From assembly GCA_030765645.1 (NCBI GenBank), contig JAVCCE010000076.1:1-64000 (forward strand): 64,000 nt of DNA. Reading direction: 5' to 3'. Origin of the DNA: Candidatus Hinthialibacter antarcticus (GTDB taxonomy: Bacteria > Hinthialibacterota > Hinthialibacteria > Hinthialibacterales > Hinthialibacteraceae). The first letter of the stretch is position 1; each line of letters begins with the position of its first letter. A program made the translations under genes and the position numbers. Of the stretch, positions 14,867 through 28,108 are shown piece after piece. The notes under the pieces were generated by a model. It searched no databases and had not been told where the DNA came from. It worked only from the letters and a program-made list of their open reading frames with translations.

Positions 14867-15070
14867 CCGTTTATGCGAAGACGGTTAGCTAGTCACAAGG
14901 CGGCGCCAGTCGGTGAAAATTTCCAGCCCAGCGGCAAGTTTTTCCACCTTGATCCATCATGTCGCCAACATTTTTAAATGGATAAATAGAAGAGGCTTTC
15001 TTCTGTAATGCGCTGTAAATTCATAAGATATGAAGATTGCCCCCGATATCAGTTATCGCATGTGATGGGT

Positions 15071-15085
15071 TGGCACGCATGTTGT
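15071..15085 (+). promoter_or_regulatory. Candidate sigma-54 (-24/-12) promoter
   Basis: TGGCACGCATGTTGT matches the consensus TGGCACG-N4-TTGC at every position except the last, where T replaces C. Spacing between the GG and the GT is exactly that of sigma-54 promoters. Transcription would start near 15097. Confidence 0.6.
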
Positions 15086-15097
15086 ATATAGAGAGAG

Positions 15098-15272
15098 TGG
15101 GTGCTGTAAACGATTTGAAGGAGTGAGGAGTTTCGACAGGTAGTATGATCGAGTGAACTGTCGAGGCTACCGAGCAGCCTTCAGCCATAGAGGGTCGGTG
15201 TTGGCGGAGCCGATCTACGACCTTCTGAATGGGGAAGACCGGTGCAAGCGGAGCTTGACCGGTCTTTTTTTG
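15098..15272 (+). ncRNA. Candidate small RNA with GGA loops
   Basis: A non-coding stretch of about 175 bases lies between the sigma-54-like promoter and a strong terminator. It can form a hairpin CGACAG...CTGTCG (near 15134-15163), a larger stem GGTCG...CGACC (near 15193-15222) whose inner tip is GGC-GGA-GCC, and the terminator stem whose loop is again GGA. An unpaired GAAGGAGTGAGGAG lies near the 5' end. Repeated GGA, partly in loops, is the recognition feature of CsrA/RsmA-sequestering RNAs. I match it to no named RNA family, so identity is inference. Confidence 0.5.
15235..15271 (+). terminator. Rho-independent terminator of the candidate small RNA
   Basis: A 9-bp stem AAGACCGGT/ACCGGTCTT, one bulged G, then CAAGC/GCTTG closing a GGA loop, followed by seven T residues (15265-15271). 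Confidence 0.9.
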
Positions 15273-15287
15273 TCTAGATTTATAACG

Positions 15288-15368
15288 GGGGAGGGCGAGG
15301 CTCCCGCCGAGCCGCGAATAAGCGTAATTAATTCGGGATTATTGGCTCACCAGGAGATTCGCTTTACC
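15288..15368. repeat. Dispersed repeat family A, copy 3 (right arm decayed)
   Basis: Left arm is the GAGGCTCCCGCCGAGCCGCG variant; the right arm GGCTCACCAGGAGATTCGCT has lost part of its outer end. It abuts the 3' end of the pilT-like gene. Confidence 0.75.
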
Positions 15369-15380
15369 ATTAATTAGTAT

Positions 15381-16451
15381 TTACCCGGATTTTTTTTCTT
15401 TCAGCGCGGCGTCCATGAAGGCGTTTGGATTGCGCATGTGCATCTGGCATTCTTCCGAGGTTATCATGCCGCGTTGATAGAGTTTGATAAGCGAACTATC
15501 CAGCGTGGTCATGCCGTCTTTGGTACCGGTTTCTATGACGGAATACAACTGGTGCGACTTGCCTTCGCGAATCAGGTTTGCGCAGGAATGGGTATTGCGC
15601 AGCACTTCCGCCGCGAGCACCCGTCCGTCGCCGCTGGCTTTGGGCAACAAGCGCTGCGAGACCACCGCCAGTAAACTCAACGAAAGTTGTACGCGCACCT
15701 GTTGTTGTTGATGTTCAGGGAACACGTCGATGATACGGTCGATGGTTTGCACCGCGTCATTGGTATGCAGCGTTGCGAGAACCAGGTGGCCGGTTTCCGC
15801 TGCCGTTAGCGCGGCGGAAATGGTATCCCAATCGCGCAATTCGCCGATCTGAATAATGTCGGGGTCTTGGCGCAAGACATACTTCAATGCGTTGCGGAAC
15901 GACTGCGTATCGCCGCCGACCTCGCGTTGATCGACGATGCTGTTCTTGTGATTGTGGATATATTCAATCGGGTCGTCGACGGTGATGATATGCGCGCGCT
16001 TATTAAGATTGATGAGGTCGATCATTGACGCCAGCGTGGTTGACTTGCCGTGCCCGGTCGGCCCCGTGACCAGAAACAGTCCATGCGAAGACATCGCCAA
16101 ATCATACACGATCGGCGGAAGCCCCAGCGTTTTCAAACGGGGGATTTCGGTCGGAATCGGTCGGAACGCCGCCGCCGCGCAGCCTTTTTGCCAATAGCAA
16201 TTGACGCGAAAGCGGTGCGTGCCGCCTAAGCCAAGCGACAAGTCGAGTTCTTTCTTTTCTTCATATTCCAAGCGTTGTTTTTCGTTCAATAATGAATAGA
16301 TCAGCCGCTTGACCATGTCGGGCGTCAAGGTCGGATATTCTGTCGGGATCAGCTCGCCGTGCAGGCGGATCAACGGCGGCGTTCCCGCAGTCAACAGCAG
16401 GTCGGATGCGCCGCGTTCGTATGTGAGTTTAAACAGCTCCGCAATTTCCAT
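15381..16451 (-). CDS. pilT: PilT-type pilus retraction ATPase
   Basis: A 356-residue hexameric secretion ATPase that would power retraction of a type IV pilus from the cytoplasmic face. I start at MEIAELFK (16451), which aligns with known PilT starts; the longer frame upstream overlaps the neighbouring gene. Walker A is GPTGHGKST (residues 130-138), with His where Ser is usual. The Asp box, VDDPIEYIHNH, and the His box LATLHTNDAVQTIDR are intact. The C-terminal ANLIREGK corresponds to the PilT AIRNLIRE signature. It starts 4 bases after the preceding gene's stop, so the cluster 18791-15381 is probably one operon. No pilus structural gene is visible. Confidence 0.93.
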   Translation of the reverse strand: MEIAELFKLTYERGASDLLLTAGTPPLIRLHGELIPTEYPTLTPDMVKRLIYSLLNEKQRLEYEEKKELDLSLGLGGTHRFRVNCYWQKGCAAAAFRPIPTEIPRLKTLGLPPIVYDLAMSSHGLFLVTGPTGHGKSTTLASMIDLINLNKRAHIITVDDPIEYIHNHKNSIVDQREVGGDTQSFRNALKYVLRQDPDIIQIGELRDWDTISAALTAAETGHLVLATLHTNDAVQTIDRIIDVFPEHQQQQVRVQLSLSLLAVVSQRLLPKASGDGRVLAAEVLRNTHSCANLIREGKSHQLYSVIETGTKDGMTTLDSSLIKLYQRGMITSEECQMHMRNPNAFMDAALKEKKSG

Positions 16452-16455
16452 GTAT

Positions 16456-17661
16456 TTAATCCTCAGGTTTCGGCGTTGGCGTTGGCCTCGGCGCAGGCGT
16501 TGGGTCGTCTTGTCGTGGAAGAAAATCCATTGTGGTTTCAATCACGTCCGACCACAAACCAGCGCGGTTACGCGCCCGAACTTTCATATAGTAAGAAGTG
16601 TAGAACGCGGGCGGCTGAAAAGCGAATGTAATCTTTGGCTCTTTCGTCAGCACTTCTTCAGGAGGTTGATGGAGGCCGTGCGTTGTCCAGATATACGAAT
16701 AGCCTTCAATGTCTGATTGTTCATCGACTGCCGAGTCCCATGACCACGACATTTTGTTGGATTGATGTTCACCGACCAAGTTCGATGGATCGCTGGGCGG
16801 GGTCGAATCGATCCTTGTTTCAGAAATATTTCGGTTACGCCAGAGGTGAACGCCGTCGAGCAACAGTTTGTATTTTGTATTCAGTTTGAGTGAATTGCTG
16901 GGGGTGGTGATGGCAAAGCGTTCAATGGAGCGGCGCTTCTCGGGTGATGTGAAAGCCTCATCCAAATCAATGACGCAATAGTGCCATTGGCTACGCTCGT
17001 CTCCTGTTCGCGACAGCGTATCGAGTTCGGCTTGAAATTCATCTGATGCAGCGGCGATGCGGACCGAGAAGCCCTTAGGCGCGTCGCTCCAGTAATAAAA
17101 ATCCAAGTAGCGATAGTTTGACCAATCGAGCGTCGTCATTTCTTTGGTGAAACCAACGCCGATCAAATCGATGTCTCGCTGCTTCATGGATTCTTCACGC
17201 CATTCAAATTCAAACGTCCCGCAGGCGCGGCCTTCAATTGGGGCGTCAACGCCAAACGATTGGCTCAATAAAATGCCGGGAGCGGAACTCATCAGCAGCG
17301 CTTTCGTCATGTCGCTGAACTTGTCGAATGAGCAGAGCGCAACGTGGTCGCTCTCATGGTCGCAGGTGACGGCGGAGCGAAATTGAAAGCGCTGACCGTC
17401 TTTGCCCGAAAAGGGAACCGCGCGCGTATTCGCGGCAGAGGCGAGCGAGATGGTTTGCCATGCGCTAGCCGTTTCGTTGTTTTGTTCGCGATAAAAAATG
17501 GTGAAGATTGCATTTTCACACGTCGGGGTTTCGGAGCATTTCAGTTCAAAGTTCGGCGCGACCCATTCAGGAACAATAACGCTGGATGTTATCGGTTCCG
17601 TTCGCGCTGTCATTGGCAGAAGCACAATGCAGGTAATGAATAACACAATCATTCGTAACAC
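16456..17661 (-). CDS. Secreted protein with Fn3-like C-terminal domain
   Basis: A 401-residue exported protein (signal peptide about 1-21). The middle (about residues 140-270) is a jelly-roll-like beta domain with W-rich strands (LDWSNYRYLDFYYW, LLLDGVHLWRN) as in carbohydrate-binding modules. A fibronectin type III-like domain follows (about 290-385: TPPSDPSNLVG, VDEQSDIEGYSYIW, YYMKVRARNRAGLWS). The tail is Pro/Thr-rich and acidic. Six or more Cys in the first 120 residues may form disulfides. It sits between two pilT genes with gaps of 4 and 20 bases, so a surface or pilus-associated role is plausible but unproven. Start GTG 17661 follows AGAGG; ATG 17652 is an alternative. Confidence 0.65.
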   Translation of the reverse strand: MLRMIVLFITCIVLLPMTARTEPITSSVIVPEWVAPNFELKCSETPTCENAIFTIFYREQNNETASAWQTISLASAANTRAVPFSGKDGQRFQFRSAVTCDHESDHVALCSFDKFSDMTKALLMSSAPGILLSQSFGVDAPIEGRACGTFEFEWREESMKQRDIDLIGVGFTKEMTTLDWSNYRYLDFYYWSDAPKGFSVRIAAASDEFQAELDTLSRTGDERSQWHYCVIDLDEAFTSPEKRRSIERFAITTPSNSLKLNTKYKLLLDGVHLWRNRNISETRIDSTPPSDPSNLVGEHQSNKMSWSWDSAVDEQSDIEGYSYIWTTHGLHQPPEEVLTKEPKITFAFQPPAFYTSYYMKVRARNRAGLWSDVIETTMDFLPRQDDPTPAPRPTPTPKPED

Positions 17662-17681: not shown

Positions 17682-18791
<1,110 letters not shown>

Positions 18792-24669: not shown

Positions 24670-25362
24670 TTACCTCTTCGATGCGATCAATACCACGCCT
24701 TCTTGAATCTCGCGGCCTTCGGTCTGGTAGCCGGGTTTGAGGATGCGGCAGATGGTTCCCGGTTCGACTTCATCGTTGGCTTCGTCGCCAGAGATGTGGA
24801 CATACGTCGGATCAGGCCTTTGCCCAAAGACGGTGGTGCGCACGATGTTGGTTTTTTCCAAGGCCGGGTCAAGCAATTGCGCTGCTTGGTTTAACGGCTT
24901 GTGAATAAATAGAAAACTATTTTTCAGCGGTCCCAGGTTTCCTTCTTCTACTTTTTTTTCCATAAAACGCATGGTCTCATGAAAGAGGTCATACTGCGTA
25001 AGGATCGCCGCAAAGCGGTCTTCCCGAATGGAGACCGAATCGAGGCCGTTGTATTGAAATACCTGAAACTGAAGTTCTGCGCCGCCATAGGGAAAGCGGT
25101 TCAAGCGGCCCAAGCGGCCTGGTTGCGGGCCTGCTTCGCCTTCGATAATTTCCTGCGCCTTGGTTAAAAAGCGTTCGAGGTGGTCTTTGCAAAGTTTGAT
25201 GGCTTCGCCGATGTCTCCGCCGATGGTGGCGCTGTAGCGGTCAAAGGCTTCTTTGGCGCGGATGAATGCGGGGTCCATTCCCCGCGAAGTTGGCGCGATG
25301 ACATCGACTAAAATTCCCCAGCTGGCTGCGGGCGCATAGAGGTCTCTCGGAGTTGAGCCCAT
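24670..25362 (-). CDS. Protein with GrpE-like C-terminal domain
   Basis: A 230-residue cytoplasmic protein. The last 30 residues (GTICRILKPGYQTEGREIQE then GVVLIAS) follow the beta-domain pattern of GrpE nucleotide-exchange factors, in which GY..xGR.L..A.V.V is conserved. The N-terminal 100 residues are helical (MDPAFIRAKEAFDRYSATIGGD...) and could be a long coil, again like GrpE, but the centre (FPYGGAELQFQVFQYNGLDSVS and on) has no clear GrpE match. I therefore name only the domain. Remnants of two paralogues lie downstream at 23611 and 23763, with the higBA pair between. It starts 12 bases after the GT39 gene and is likely in its operon. Confidence 0.5.
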   Translation of the reverse strand: MGSTPRDLYAPAASWGILVDVIAPTSRGMDPAFIRAKEAFDRYSATIGGDIGEAIKLCKDHLERFLTKAQEIIEGEAGPQPGRLGRLNRFPYGGAELQFQVFQYNGLDSVSIREDRFAAILTQYDLFHETMRFMEKKVEEGNLGPLKNSFLFIHKPLNQAAQLLDPALEKTNIVRTTVFGQRPDPTYVHISGDEANDEVEPGTICRILKPGYQTEGREIQEGVVLIASKR

Positions 25363-25374
25363 GATTGGTTTCCT

Positions 25375-26739
25375 TCACGAATAAGGGACTGATTTTGCTC
25401 GGCTGGAAGGCCGACGAAACAACCACTTACCATACCCCCAAACCGCCCCGTCAACAAGCGAAGCCGCCCCCAGCATTGCGTAGTACAGCAGTATCGGATC
25501 AAGCGGCATCCGGTAGCGTGTGCGGGCAAAATAAAGGATGCAGGCCAGCGAATATAACGCCAGCATGGAAAGCGGCAAGCCTTGTCGGAGGCCGATCATC
25601 CAGGCGTAGACGATGCCGGTCGCGGCAAGCAGGAGCAGCACCGGGTTCCAACGGAAAATTGGCAAAGAACTGGAACCGGGAAACACCAACCCGGGAACGA
25701 CCGCGCCTCTGTGTTGAGTGGGGTATTCCGCCCACGGCCAAGGCGGCTCTTGAAGCACATAAAGGTAGTACATTTTTTGGACTGCTCTCGAGAAGAAACT
25801 CAACGGGTGTTCACTCAGCGACTGGAGGCCTGTTTTTAAAAAGAGACGGTCTTCAGTCACTTCATTGCTGTTGCCATGATCGGCGAGATATTTGCGGATG
25901 GTTTCTTTGTCGCCAGTGTGGTAATAGCTGTAGTTGATGTGCTGACCGATGTAAAAATTCACACCGGAGTTCGTCGTGATTAAAACCAGTGACCCCAGCA
26001 AAACAAAGTTACGAATTGTCCAGGGTAGAATCGGCGCTATCCAGGCGAACATCGGCGCCCACAGCCGGTGTCTCCATTTTTCTTGTGGAACTCCTGCCAG
26101 AGAACTAAATGCGACAATTGGAATGAAAAATAGCGAGATCGGGCGGACCAGCGCCAACCCGCCGAGCAACGCAGAAAATAAAATATAGAGCCAGTAGTTG
26201 TGATTGCGCTGCGCTAGCGTTCCAATCAAAATCCACATCAGCAATCCAAAGACATAAAGCGTTTCTGTCATGACCAGGCCGGTAAAAAAGATGTGTTCGC
26301 TCATAAACGCGAACATAAGCCCGATTAAAGCGGGGGCTGCGTGTGGGCGTTTTAAAATAGAGGGTAGGGGAAACTCGCGCATGGGTGTGAGCCATAACCG
26401 CGCAATGCTATACAACAACACGGGCGAAAGCGCCCCGAGCACAGCTTGTATGATGCGAAGCGGTTGCAGCGTACTCGCGAATAATAAACTGACCGCCGCA
26501 ATAAACGTCGGGTAAAGCGGCGCCCGGTAGGCGATGCGGTCGGCGGATTGCCCCATCACCTCGCCTCTCAGAACTTTGAGGCCGCAGACGTAATAGTCTT
26601 CCATGTCAGAGAAGGGGGGCGGATGCACCACGCCCACCCAAAGCAGCCGCAAACAGAGCGCGATAATAAATAAGCCGAAACAGATTGCAATATCTGTCCG
26701 GTGTGTTTTTAGGCCGGAAAAAAATGCGGTTGGTTTCAT
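25375..26739 (-). CDS. GT39/ArnT-like membrane glycosyltransferase
   Basis: A 454-residue polytopic protein with about ten hydrophobic segments, the first at residues 17-35. The first outer loop contains the acidic pair in FSDMEDYYVCGLKVLRGE, which corresponds to the DD/DE metal or substrate site of dolichyl-phosphate-mannose-type and ArnT-type glycosyltransferases. RAPLYPTFIAAVSLLF is the adjacent conserved segment. Such enzymes move a sugar from a polyprenyl-phosphate carrier to an acceptor on the outer side of the inner membrane. No ribosome site is clear before ATG 26739. The GrpE-like gene follows 12 bases downstream. Acceptor and sugar are unknown. Confidence 0.75.
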   Translation of the reverse strand: MKPTAFFSGLKTHRTDIAICFGLFIIALCLRLLWVGVVHPPPFSDMEDYYVCGLKVLRGEVMGQSADRIAYRAPLYPTFIAAVSLLFASTLQPLRIIQAVLGALSPVLLYSIARLWLTPMREFPLPSILKRPHAAPALIGLMFAFMSEHIFFTGLVMTETLYVFGLLMWILIGTLAQRNHNYWLYILFSALLGGLALVRPISLFFIPIVAFSSLAGVPQEKWRHRLWAPMFAWIAPILPWTIRNFVLLGSLVLITTNSGVNFYIGQHINYSYYHTGDKETIRKYLADHGNSNEVTEDRLFLKTGLQSLSEHPLSFFSRAVQKMYYLYVLQEPPWPWAEYPTQHRGAVVPGLVFPGSSSLPIFRWNPVLLLLAATGIVYAWMIGLRQGLPLSMLALYSLACILYFARTRYRMPLDPILLYYAMLGAASLVDGAVWGYGKWLFRRPSSRAKSVPYS

Positions 26740-26848
26740 TACGCCCAGCAGGTTCAGAGTTGAGCTATTCTACAGGATGAAACGGAATCCGTCGTACCCT
26801 ATAAGCATAGATGGTTTAATTTTTAATTGAAAGAATAGGGCTGGGCGC

Positions 26849-27310
26849 TTACGACGAAGCGGTTGTGGGTTCGGGTTCAGCGGCTTTTTCAGGTTCTGCG
26901 GCTTCAAACGTAGGAGCCTCTGGCGTTAACGATTGGTTGTACGTTTTTTGGCGGATGTTATAAATCATATTTACGAATTTCGTCTTGTTTTCTTTTGACA
27001 GGGGGGAACCCAAGACGCGTGAGATTTCTTTCACGGCTAATTCGTCAAACAACCGTTGAGAATAGAGGATATCAACAGGCTCATTGAGCGCATAACGACG
27101 CACCAGACTAAGCAGCGTGTCGCTTTCTGACTGTTCCATCTCTAAAGTCGATATTTCGTCTAAAAACTCTCGCTCTTTGACATATCGCATGTAGCGCTTG
27201 TGAAGAAAAATAACAAGCACAATCAAGAGGATGCAGCCGATTCCCAATGAAAGAAACGCTTCCATCGAAACATCAGAATTCTTATATAAACTACCAAACT
27301 CATCAGGCAT
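26849..27310 (-). CDS. Small membrane-anchored protein with acidic tail
   Basis: A 153-residue protein with an N-terminal transmembrane helix (residues 15-33, EAFLSLGIGCILLIVLVIFL) and a basic flank KRYMRYVKER that fixes the rest in the cytoplasm. A helical domain with charge pairs covers residues 45-125 (DEISTLEMEQSESDTLLSLV, LFDELAVKEISRVLG). The last 20 residues are Ala/Glu/Pro-rich, a likely flexible tail. GGAGAG precedes ATG 27310. It does not match a family that I recognise; the position upstream of GT39 may be fortuitous. Confidence 0.55.
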   Translation of the reverse strand: MPDEFGSLYKNSDVSMEAFLSLGIGCILLIVLVIFLHKRYMRYVKEREFLDEISTLEMEQSESDTLLSLVRRYALNEPVDILYSQRLFDELAVKEISRVLGSPLSKENKTKFVNMIYNIRQKTYNQSLTPEAPTFEAAEPEKAAEPEPTTASS

Positions 27311-27418
27311 AATACTCTCCGCATTTCCTCATTGCATAGTATATCGTTGTATATTCAAAATACCAACAGATTTTTTGCCTGCAAGTAGTGATGTAAACAT
27401 CTGTTATTCCTAAGGATA

Positions 27419-28108
27419 TTAGGACTTGCTTATGATCTGGTATTCAGATGAATGAATGGGCCGCGCTTCTTTTCTCCACTTAATTTCGTAATGAGAGGCT
27501 TCTTCACCTGCCTCATTGATGTTTCGAACAGTCTCGTATGAGACATCTTCATTGACGCGTTGAAATAGGCTTGATGTAATGATTCGTTCATTCGCGTCAT
27601 TATAATAATCGGCATGATCTGACTTAAGTTTAAGTATTCCTTGGGGTAATAGCGTTTCAGCCATCTTTTGTAATAGACGGGGGTTAAATAATCTACGTTT
27701 GCGATGCCGACCTTTGGGCCAGGGGTCGGGGAAGTACACATGATAGGCTTGGATGCTGTTTGGCTTGACCAACAATTTCACCACCATGTCGGCGTCCAGG
27801 TTAAGAAAAGCTAGGTTGGTCCGCCTTAGTTTGGTTGCGCGGGATGCGCCGATACGGATGATCTTTTTTGAACGCTCAATCGCGATGAAATTGACCGAAG
27901 GCCGGGCTTTCGATTCCGCCAGAATAAACCGGCCTTTGCCGCAGCCAATCTCAATCTCAACCGGATTGTCATTGCCAAAGATTTTTGGGAAATCCAAGGT
28001 TTCATCTATGGAACCCGGTTGAACGAAAATTTCATCCATCAAGGGATCGTATTCGTGAACAGTTTTGGCCATGGTGTAATTCTTGCAACTTTCATATTTT
28101 GGGTTCAT
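27419..28108 (-). CDS. trmB: tRNA (guanine-N7)-methyltransferase
   Basis: A class I SAM-dependent methyltransferase of about 229 residues that modifies G46 in the tRNA variable loop. The SAM motif EIGCGKGRFILAESKARP lies about residues 50-70, and the family-specific FPDPWPKGRHRKRRLF block is at about 135-150. The ending DYYNDANERIITSSLF and the TNYE-like region near the C-terminus (VSYETVRNINEAGEEASHYE) also fit. The first ATG (28108) abuts a hairpin belonging to repeat family C; an ATG at 28072 gives 12 fewer residues and could be the true start. Neither has an obvious ribosome site. Confidence 0.93.
   Translation of the reverse strand: MNPKYESCKNYTMAKTVHEYDPLMDEIFVQPGSIDETLDFPKIFGNDNPVEIEIGCGKGRFILAESKARPSVNFIAIERSKKIIRIGASRATKLRRTNLAFLNLDADMVVKLLVKPNSIQAYHVYFPDPWPKGRHRKRRLFNPRLLQKMAETLLPQGILKLKSDHADYYNDANERIITSSLFQRVNEDVSYETVRNINEAGEEASHYEIKWRKEARPIHSSEYQIISKS

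Follow-up and report, generated by a model that had tools for sequence, protein, structure and literature searches.

A conserved stand-alone small RNA gene with a sigma-54-type promoter in an uncultured bacterial lineage, and flagellin leaders as its predicted target

The window, i.e. the whole 64-kb stretch of DNA analysed here, contains a single-copy non-coding RNA gene at positions 15071–15272. Each of the six genomes available for the family has this gene, as do two of the three genomes of the sister family. A GC-rich, repeat-like segment (GGGGGAGGGCGAGGCTCCCGCCGAGCCGC, 15285–15315) lies between the terminator of the small RNA (sRNA) and pilT, and two PilT-like ATPases of the T2SSE family are encoded on the minus strand (15381–16508 and 17682–18791), flanking an uncharacterised exported protein. 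This PilT-like cluster is kept in several relatives. An operon for a GrpE-like protein, a PMT-like glycosyltransferase, a small unknown protein, and a TrmB-like methyltransferase is located at 24670–28108. A two-component operon, which had been guessed from gene lengths to lie beside the RNA, proved to be wrong, the genes being those for the GrpE-like protein and the PMT-like glycosyltransferase.

The location beside a pilT cluster, to which the original prediction had drawn attention, is not a conserved feature of the sRNA gene. In five genomes of the family, the sRNA gene is located downstream of the GrpE-like gene, and in four of these five it lies just upstream of a gene for a PHO4-family phosphate permease (PiT) on the same strand, an arrangement that would fit a cis-acting leader or attenuator of the permease gene. 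In the window, however, the GrpE operon is 9.5 kb away from the sRNA gene and no co-directional gene follows downstream; a downstream co-directional gene is also absent from genome G004, and every neighbour of the sRNA gene differs in the sister family. Cis-regulation of PiT is largely refuted by these changed neighbours and is regarded as extremely improbable. Because the RNA is conserved across the order while its neighbours change, it is a free-standing gene and presumably acts in trans.

When 61 genomes were searched with the DNA of the segment, the only matches came from the remaining five members of the family, one per genome. A covariance model built from five members detected the six family copies with E-values of 1e-52 to 1e-39 and the copies of two sister-family genomes at about 1e-21, whereas three additional families of the class gave no convincing match; weak matches in other classes and in genome G005 (L034 and L035) lacked the invariant motifs and were dropped. 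One further genome, G007, contains a flagellin leader with a complement of the RNA 5' end, and no sRNA gene was detected in it; this assembly consists of 1270 contigs, and the missing gene is probably an assembly gap. No reading frame inside the RNA is common to the copies of the eight genomes compared, and a coding RNA was rejected on this ground. No match to the RNA was obtained in Rfam at the gathering thresholds, and at relaxed settings (E up to 10) nothing was found over the RNA on its strand; the segment likewise had no match in the phage collection, and our literature searches found no paper describing the RNA. Judged from these genome comparisons, the sRNA is a conserved stand-alone gene with its own sigma-54 promoter in an uncultured bacterial lineage.

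The candidate sigma-54 promoter is a −24/−12 element (TGGCAC-N5-TTGT, TGGCACGCATGTTGT) at 15071–15085 on the plus strand and is the sole TGGCAYN5TTGY sequence of the window. Because 0.8 such sequences are expected per 64-kb window by chance, the motif alone proves nothing, and as the number of GGA motifs in the RNA also matches base composition (see below), the case rests on comparison. TGGCA, TTG(T/C), and the 5-nt spacing between them are kept in all eight genomes, while the flanking bases diverge, and TTGY is separated by 12–14 nt from the invariant motif at the RNA 5' end (GGGTGCTGT) in every one of them. The near-consensus promoter proposed at the outset was thus borne out. The −12 box reads TTGT in the family and the canonical TTGC in the sister family; GT instead of GC at this box, which had been a source of concern, is therefore a family-specific variant. 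The rpoN gene, encoding the AID, core-binding (CBD), and DNA-binding (DBD) domains, was identified in 13 of 14 genomes, and the genome of the window carries both rpoN and csrA, the two genes for which a search had been proposed. When the last base of TTGT is taken as −12 and the 5' start is placed 12 nt past this base, the RNA would begin at approximately 15097, which puts GGGUGCUGU at its 5' terminus. Further upstream, a candidate activator (enhancer) element, CGGCAAnnnnTTCC (14932–14945, plus strand), recurs, sometimes with one change, 134–157 nt upstream of TGGCA in seven of the eight genomes, including the sister family despite its different neighbours. This element may be the site of a sigma-54 activator; it overlaps the terminator of the upstream gene in some genomes and constitutes weak evidence.

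The predicted RNA (15097–15271, plus strand; approximately 175 nt) contains three hairpins that are conserved with compensatory changes. The segment folds with −77.3 kcal/mol (z = −5.6 against shuffles). In an alignment of the eight members, which was fitted to the covariance model and so leans towards it, 91.5% of the pair cells are standard, compared with 23–49% when the alignment is slid, and nine base pairs change on both sides. Changes can also be followed by eye in the stem of hairpin 1 (CAG/CUG to CG/CG, and C-G to U-A) and in that of hairpin 2 (GUUGGC/GCUGAC to GUUAGC/GCUAAC, the latter in the sister family). The conservation and covariation in relatives that had been suggested as a check are therefore found in eight genomes.

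All parts of the RNA are on the plus strand. The 5' segment GGGUGCUGU (15099–15107) is single-stranded in the predicted fold and invariant in the eight genomes, and represents a candidate linear seed for the flagellin leader. Hairpin 1 (15115–15184) consists of an outer GAAGG/CCUUC stem and an inner stem of the CUUCGACAG/CUGUCGAGG type, in which four pairs have changed on both sides; its loop, UCGAGUGA (15149–15156), includes CGAGUGA, invariant in the eight genomes, and is a candidate kissing-loop seed. Hairpin 2 (15187–15230) has a compensated stem and a GGA triloop (15206–15208) within an invariant GCGGAGC, and the intrinsic terminator hairpin (15235–15271) carries a second GGA triloop (15250–15252) and a U-run. 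The strong terminator and the approximately 175 non-coding bases of the original prediction both held up: the RNA ends in a strong hairpin and U-run, and the terminator sequence AAGCGGAGCUU is invariant in the eight genomes. With a single copy in the whole genome of the window, AAGCGGAGCUU does not belong to a general class of terminators; on the same ground, neither GCGGAGC nor AAGCGGAGCTT can be regarded as a common terminator or repeat motif. In several genomes, the 3' arm of hairpin 1 could instead pair with the 5' arm of hairpin 2, and for G001 this alternative is the fold of lowest energy; the arms of G004 and the window, read by eye, nevertheless fit the hairpin 1/hairpin 2 fold better.

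The RNA had been likened to protein-sequestering RNAs of the CsrB/RsmZ type. The csrA gene is present in 13 of 14 genomes and adjoins fliW in most of them, and hfq is present in 12 of 14; the genome of the window has both csrA and hfq. Acting as such a sponge, the RNA would bind a CsrA dimer through the GGA loops on hairpins 2 and 3 and relieve repression, e.g. of flagellin. Besides the wide distribution of csrA, this reading draws on the two GGA triloops, which had been correctly recognised, are invariant in the eight RNAs, and sit on covarying stems, and on an ACAGGA or ACGGA at the hairpin-1 loop in most family members. The RNA of the window, however, lacks the GGA in hairpin 1, and the two GGAs that had been assigned to an unpaired 5' segment (15120–15122 and 15127–15129) fall, according to the predicted fold, inside hairpin 1 or next to it and lack conservation. 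GGA motifs are no more numerous than in dinucleotide-shuffled sequences, with five in the RNA of the window (shuffle mean, 5.8) and five to seven in each of the copies (shuffle P, 0.2–0.9). The small number of sites, already conceded in the original prediction, is thus the number that composition gives, and GGA enrichment was rejected as evidence for a CsrA sponge. Moreover, both conserved loops read GCGGAGC, forming C-GGA-G triloops without the ACA/A(N)GGA context of CsrA sites, whereas ACA and GGA occurred in all CsrA ligands obtained by SELEX, CsrB carries 22 GGAs, and FliW is the CsrA antagonist in other lineages (PMC7652899). The CsrB/CsrC/Rsm models of Rfam gave no match to the RNA, either at gathering or at E up to 10. 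The RNA therefore resembles CsrB, CsrC, and RsmZ in being a structured intergenic RNA with GGAs in hairpin loops and departs from them in its few GGAs, their context, the lack of an Rfam match, and its conserved antisense segments. A CsrA-like hairpin, GGC-ACGGAU-GCC, is found in flagellin leaders of these genomes and has no copy in the sRNA, and a sponge leaves the invariant 5' end and hairpin-1 loop unexplained. The lineage also has the FliW–CsrA pair, whose known antagonist is a protein rather than an sRNA. The CsrB/RsmZ reading is accordingly weak, and we consider it quite unlikely; a sponge role is unnecessary for explaining the main conserved features.

For the target search, complements of the two most conserved unpaired stretches, i.e. 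the 5' end and the hairpin-1 loop, were collected, and the flagellin genes were then surveyed. One complement of the 5' end was found 100 nt before a flagellin start, with a loop complement, GTTCACTCGA, beside it. A single flagellin gene thus has a leader to which the UCGAGUGA loop and the GGGUGCUGU 5' end are both antisense. Leaders of this kind in five genera contain a dedicated hairpin, 130–173 nt before the start codon, whose loop, UCACUCGA, is invariant. The leader 12-mer TCACTCGACGCC occurs 11 times in the six family genomes, compared with no occurrence of a reversed-pattern control. Flagellin leaders account for five of these 11 sites, each in a different genome, and no other site lies in a stable hairpin outside coding frames; in an alignment of the five leaders, TCACTCGACGCC is invariant and the flanks diverge. 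A covariance model of the leader hairpin recovered the five leaders with E-values of 1e-7 to 3e-5, one strong site per genome, and a weaker, sixth match in G001 (E = 0.09); none of the matches beyond these six has the loop. The G001 match, L208 (G001:C55:1051–1092, minus strand), lies next to a flagellin gene and combines a stem altered by compensatory changes (AAGGCG/CGUCUU) with an intact UCACUCGA loop; a flagellin-like ribosome site follows, but the flagellin coding region behind it seems to have been lost. In the genome of the window (G000:C19, minus strand), the sRNA loop can pair over eight bases at about −130. The energies of the loop duplexes alone are modest (shuffle P, 0.003–0.06 in five genomes), and G002 has the loop site only.

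The second site is matched by the RNA 5' end. In the genome of the window, positions 15097–15108 together with the preceding A form 13 contiguous pairs, including one G-U, with UGCAGCACCCACU of the leader (−25.3 kcal/mol, at about −98), and none of 1000 shuffles gave as good a duplex; in G008, 17–18 bp can form, interrupted by a bulge of one nt (−27.1 kcal/mol). Four of the five leaders have a complement of the 5' end, either exact or with one mismatch, 30–40 nt downstream of the hairpin, and in G001 the 5'-end site is present only at another flagellin gene, not at the leader with the loop site. In family leaders, the two sites follow each other in an order antiparallel to that of their sRNA partners, which is what docking at two points requires. 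The complement ACAGCACCC has 98 sites in the six genomes (the six RNA genes themselves included), and exact copies are found in flagellin leaders of three family genomes, where about 0.014 would be expected on the assumption of 36 genes with 300 nt each (P about 4e-7). When the whole RNA was scanned against its own leader in five genomes, the two peaks coincided with the two invariant segments, and 0 of 1000 shuffles reached them; since the leaders are homologous, these genomes are not independent tests. Elsewhere in the window, the RNA has its best antisense match at about 40.0 kb on the minus strand, inside a transporter coding sequence.

The three sister-family genomes have 16 non-self TACAGCACCC sites, of which four belong to flagellin leaders; three of these four are orthologous, so that they represent about two independent events. 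None of the other sites is followed shortly downstream by a gene start with a plausible ribosome site. This family lacks the leader hairpin, and the sRNA loop has changed from UCGAGUGA to ACGAGUGA, the complement of which, UCACUCGU, is found at codons 3–5 of some flagellin genes. The order of these sites would not allow one continuous antiparallel duplex, and the match between UCACUCGU and ACGAGUGA is suggestive but lies in coding sequence. At codons 2–5 of the flagellin genes L169, L170, and L151, the UCACUCGU that matches the changed loop may reflect a coding constraint. The gene with its promoter, terminator, and fold, as well as the complementarity conserved along with it, can be read from the compared sequences themselves.

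Because the two most conserved single-stranded parts of the RNA match the start of flagellin mRNA, the amount of flagellin is probably controlled by the sRNA. We infer from these data that the RNA is transcribed, that it actually pairs, and that pairing has an effect, and we consider it probable that it is a sigma-54-dependent, base-pairing regulator of flagellin that docks onto the leader at two points. In the proposed mechanism, sigma-54 RNA polymerase would transcribe the stand-alone gene into a trans-acting sRNA of about 175 nt, the exposed hairpin-1 loop UCGAGUGA would kiss the UCACUCGA loop of the hairpin in the 5' leader of flagellin mRNA, and the unpaired 5' end GGGUGCUGU would zip onto its complement 30–40 nt further down the leader, approximately 100 nt before the start codon in the genome of the window. 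Hfq, whose gene is present, may assist this pairing, and two-point docking would tune flagellin output. The sites lie about 100–140 nt upstream of the start, and in one genome as far as about 175 nt, which argues against a direct block of ribosome binding; docking might instead act through leader refolding, cleavage, or changed access of CsrA. Refolding or cleavage that lowers flagellin synthesis is slightly favoured, and activation or stabilisation of flagellin mRNA is the less probable outcome, though a plausible one. If the pairing is true, protection of UCACUCGA and GCAGCACCC in the leader is predicted. Control by sigma-54 would link the sRNA to mid-stage flagellar assembly or to a different sigma-54 signal.

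The distance of the docking sites from the start codon and the other places in the genomes that match the 5' seed could also be accommodated if the flagellin leader were the sponge, with flagellin mRNA titrating an sRNA that has its main targets elsewhere. Among the sites examined, however, no other gene recurs across genomes with a site in its 5' leader, and the 12-mer hairpin is unique to flagellin, which makes titration by the leader unlikely.

Flagellin leaders across the order (L188, L187, L183, L182, and L180; also L176, L170, and L174) contain the CsrA-like GGC-ACGGAU-GCC hairpin, located upstream of a CACGGAGGA or ACGGAGGA ribosome site. This leader hairpin and ribosome site resemble the CsrA sites of the Bacillus subtilis hag leader, which suggests hag-like CsrA–FliW control of flagellin in the lineage. 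The sRNA might do both: it would pair with the flagellin leader and use its GGA loops to bind CsrA, and docking would thereby bring CsrA to, or remove it from, the flagellin ribosome site. Such a dual role shares all of the pairing evidence, takes in the CsrA-like leader sites and the otherwise unexplained invariance of the two GGA loops, and has precedents in Escherichia coli McaS and GadY, which are both base-pairing and CsrA-binding sRNAs (PMC7652899). The loop context is poor for CsrA, however, and the GGA loops are possibly kept for stability, Hfq, or termination; we therefore regard the dual role as a tentative possibility beside base pairing with the leader, which is the preferred reading.

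Stand-alone sigma-54-dependent sRNAs that are intergenic and end in a terminator include Qrr, CrcZ, and GlmY/GlmZ. The present RNA is similar to these in having its own sigma-54 promoter, its intergenic location, and its terminator, and differs from them in structure, targets, and phylum; to our knowledge, none of them targets flagellin by a kissing loop combined with a 5' seed. In OxyS–fhlA and RNAIII, an exposed sRNA hairpin loop is complementary to an exposed mRNA loop and a second contact is made, as is predicted here, although the sequences are unrelated and the targets differ. In Campylobacter jejuni, the RpoN-dependent FlmE (CJnc230) is processed from flgE mRNA and represses flgM and Cj1387c, flaA having served as the negative control in that study (PMC11187230). 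FlmE is likewise an RpoN-linked small RNA in the flagellar hierarchy of a CsrA–FliW bacterium (PMC11187230); in a comparison made by description rather than by sequence, the present RNA differs in having its own −24/−12 promoter and terminator and a flagellin leader as its predicted target. The sigma-28-dependent MotR, FliX, FlgO, and UhpU of E. coli are base-pairing sRNAs that change flagellin levels (PMC10578931), but these are UTR-derived and MotR and FliX pair inside coding sequences, whereas two points in a 5' leader are predicted here. Taken together, FlmE and the sigma-28 sRNAs show that sRNAs tune flagella, and none of them, on this comparison, has the anatomy of the present RNA.

Across genera, two invariant sRNA segments and an invariant loop of the flagellin leader match each other. 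If the proposed interaction is true, the uncultured lineage would harbour an RNA family that Rfam release 15 lacks and whose target is readable from sequence alone. In FliW–CsrA bacteria, the work of flagellin control is thought to be done by protein antagonism; flagellin leaders in such bacteria would then also be directly controlled by a sigma-54-driven sRNA, and, should the dual role hold, a sigma-54 signal would add an RNA layer to the FliW–CsrA–flagellin homeostasis switch.
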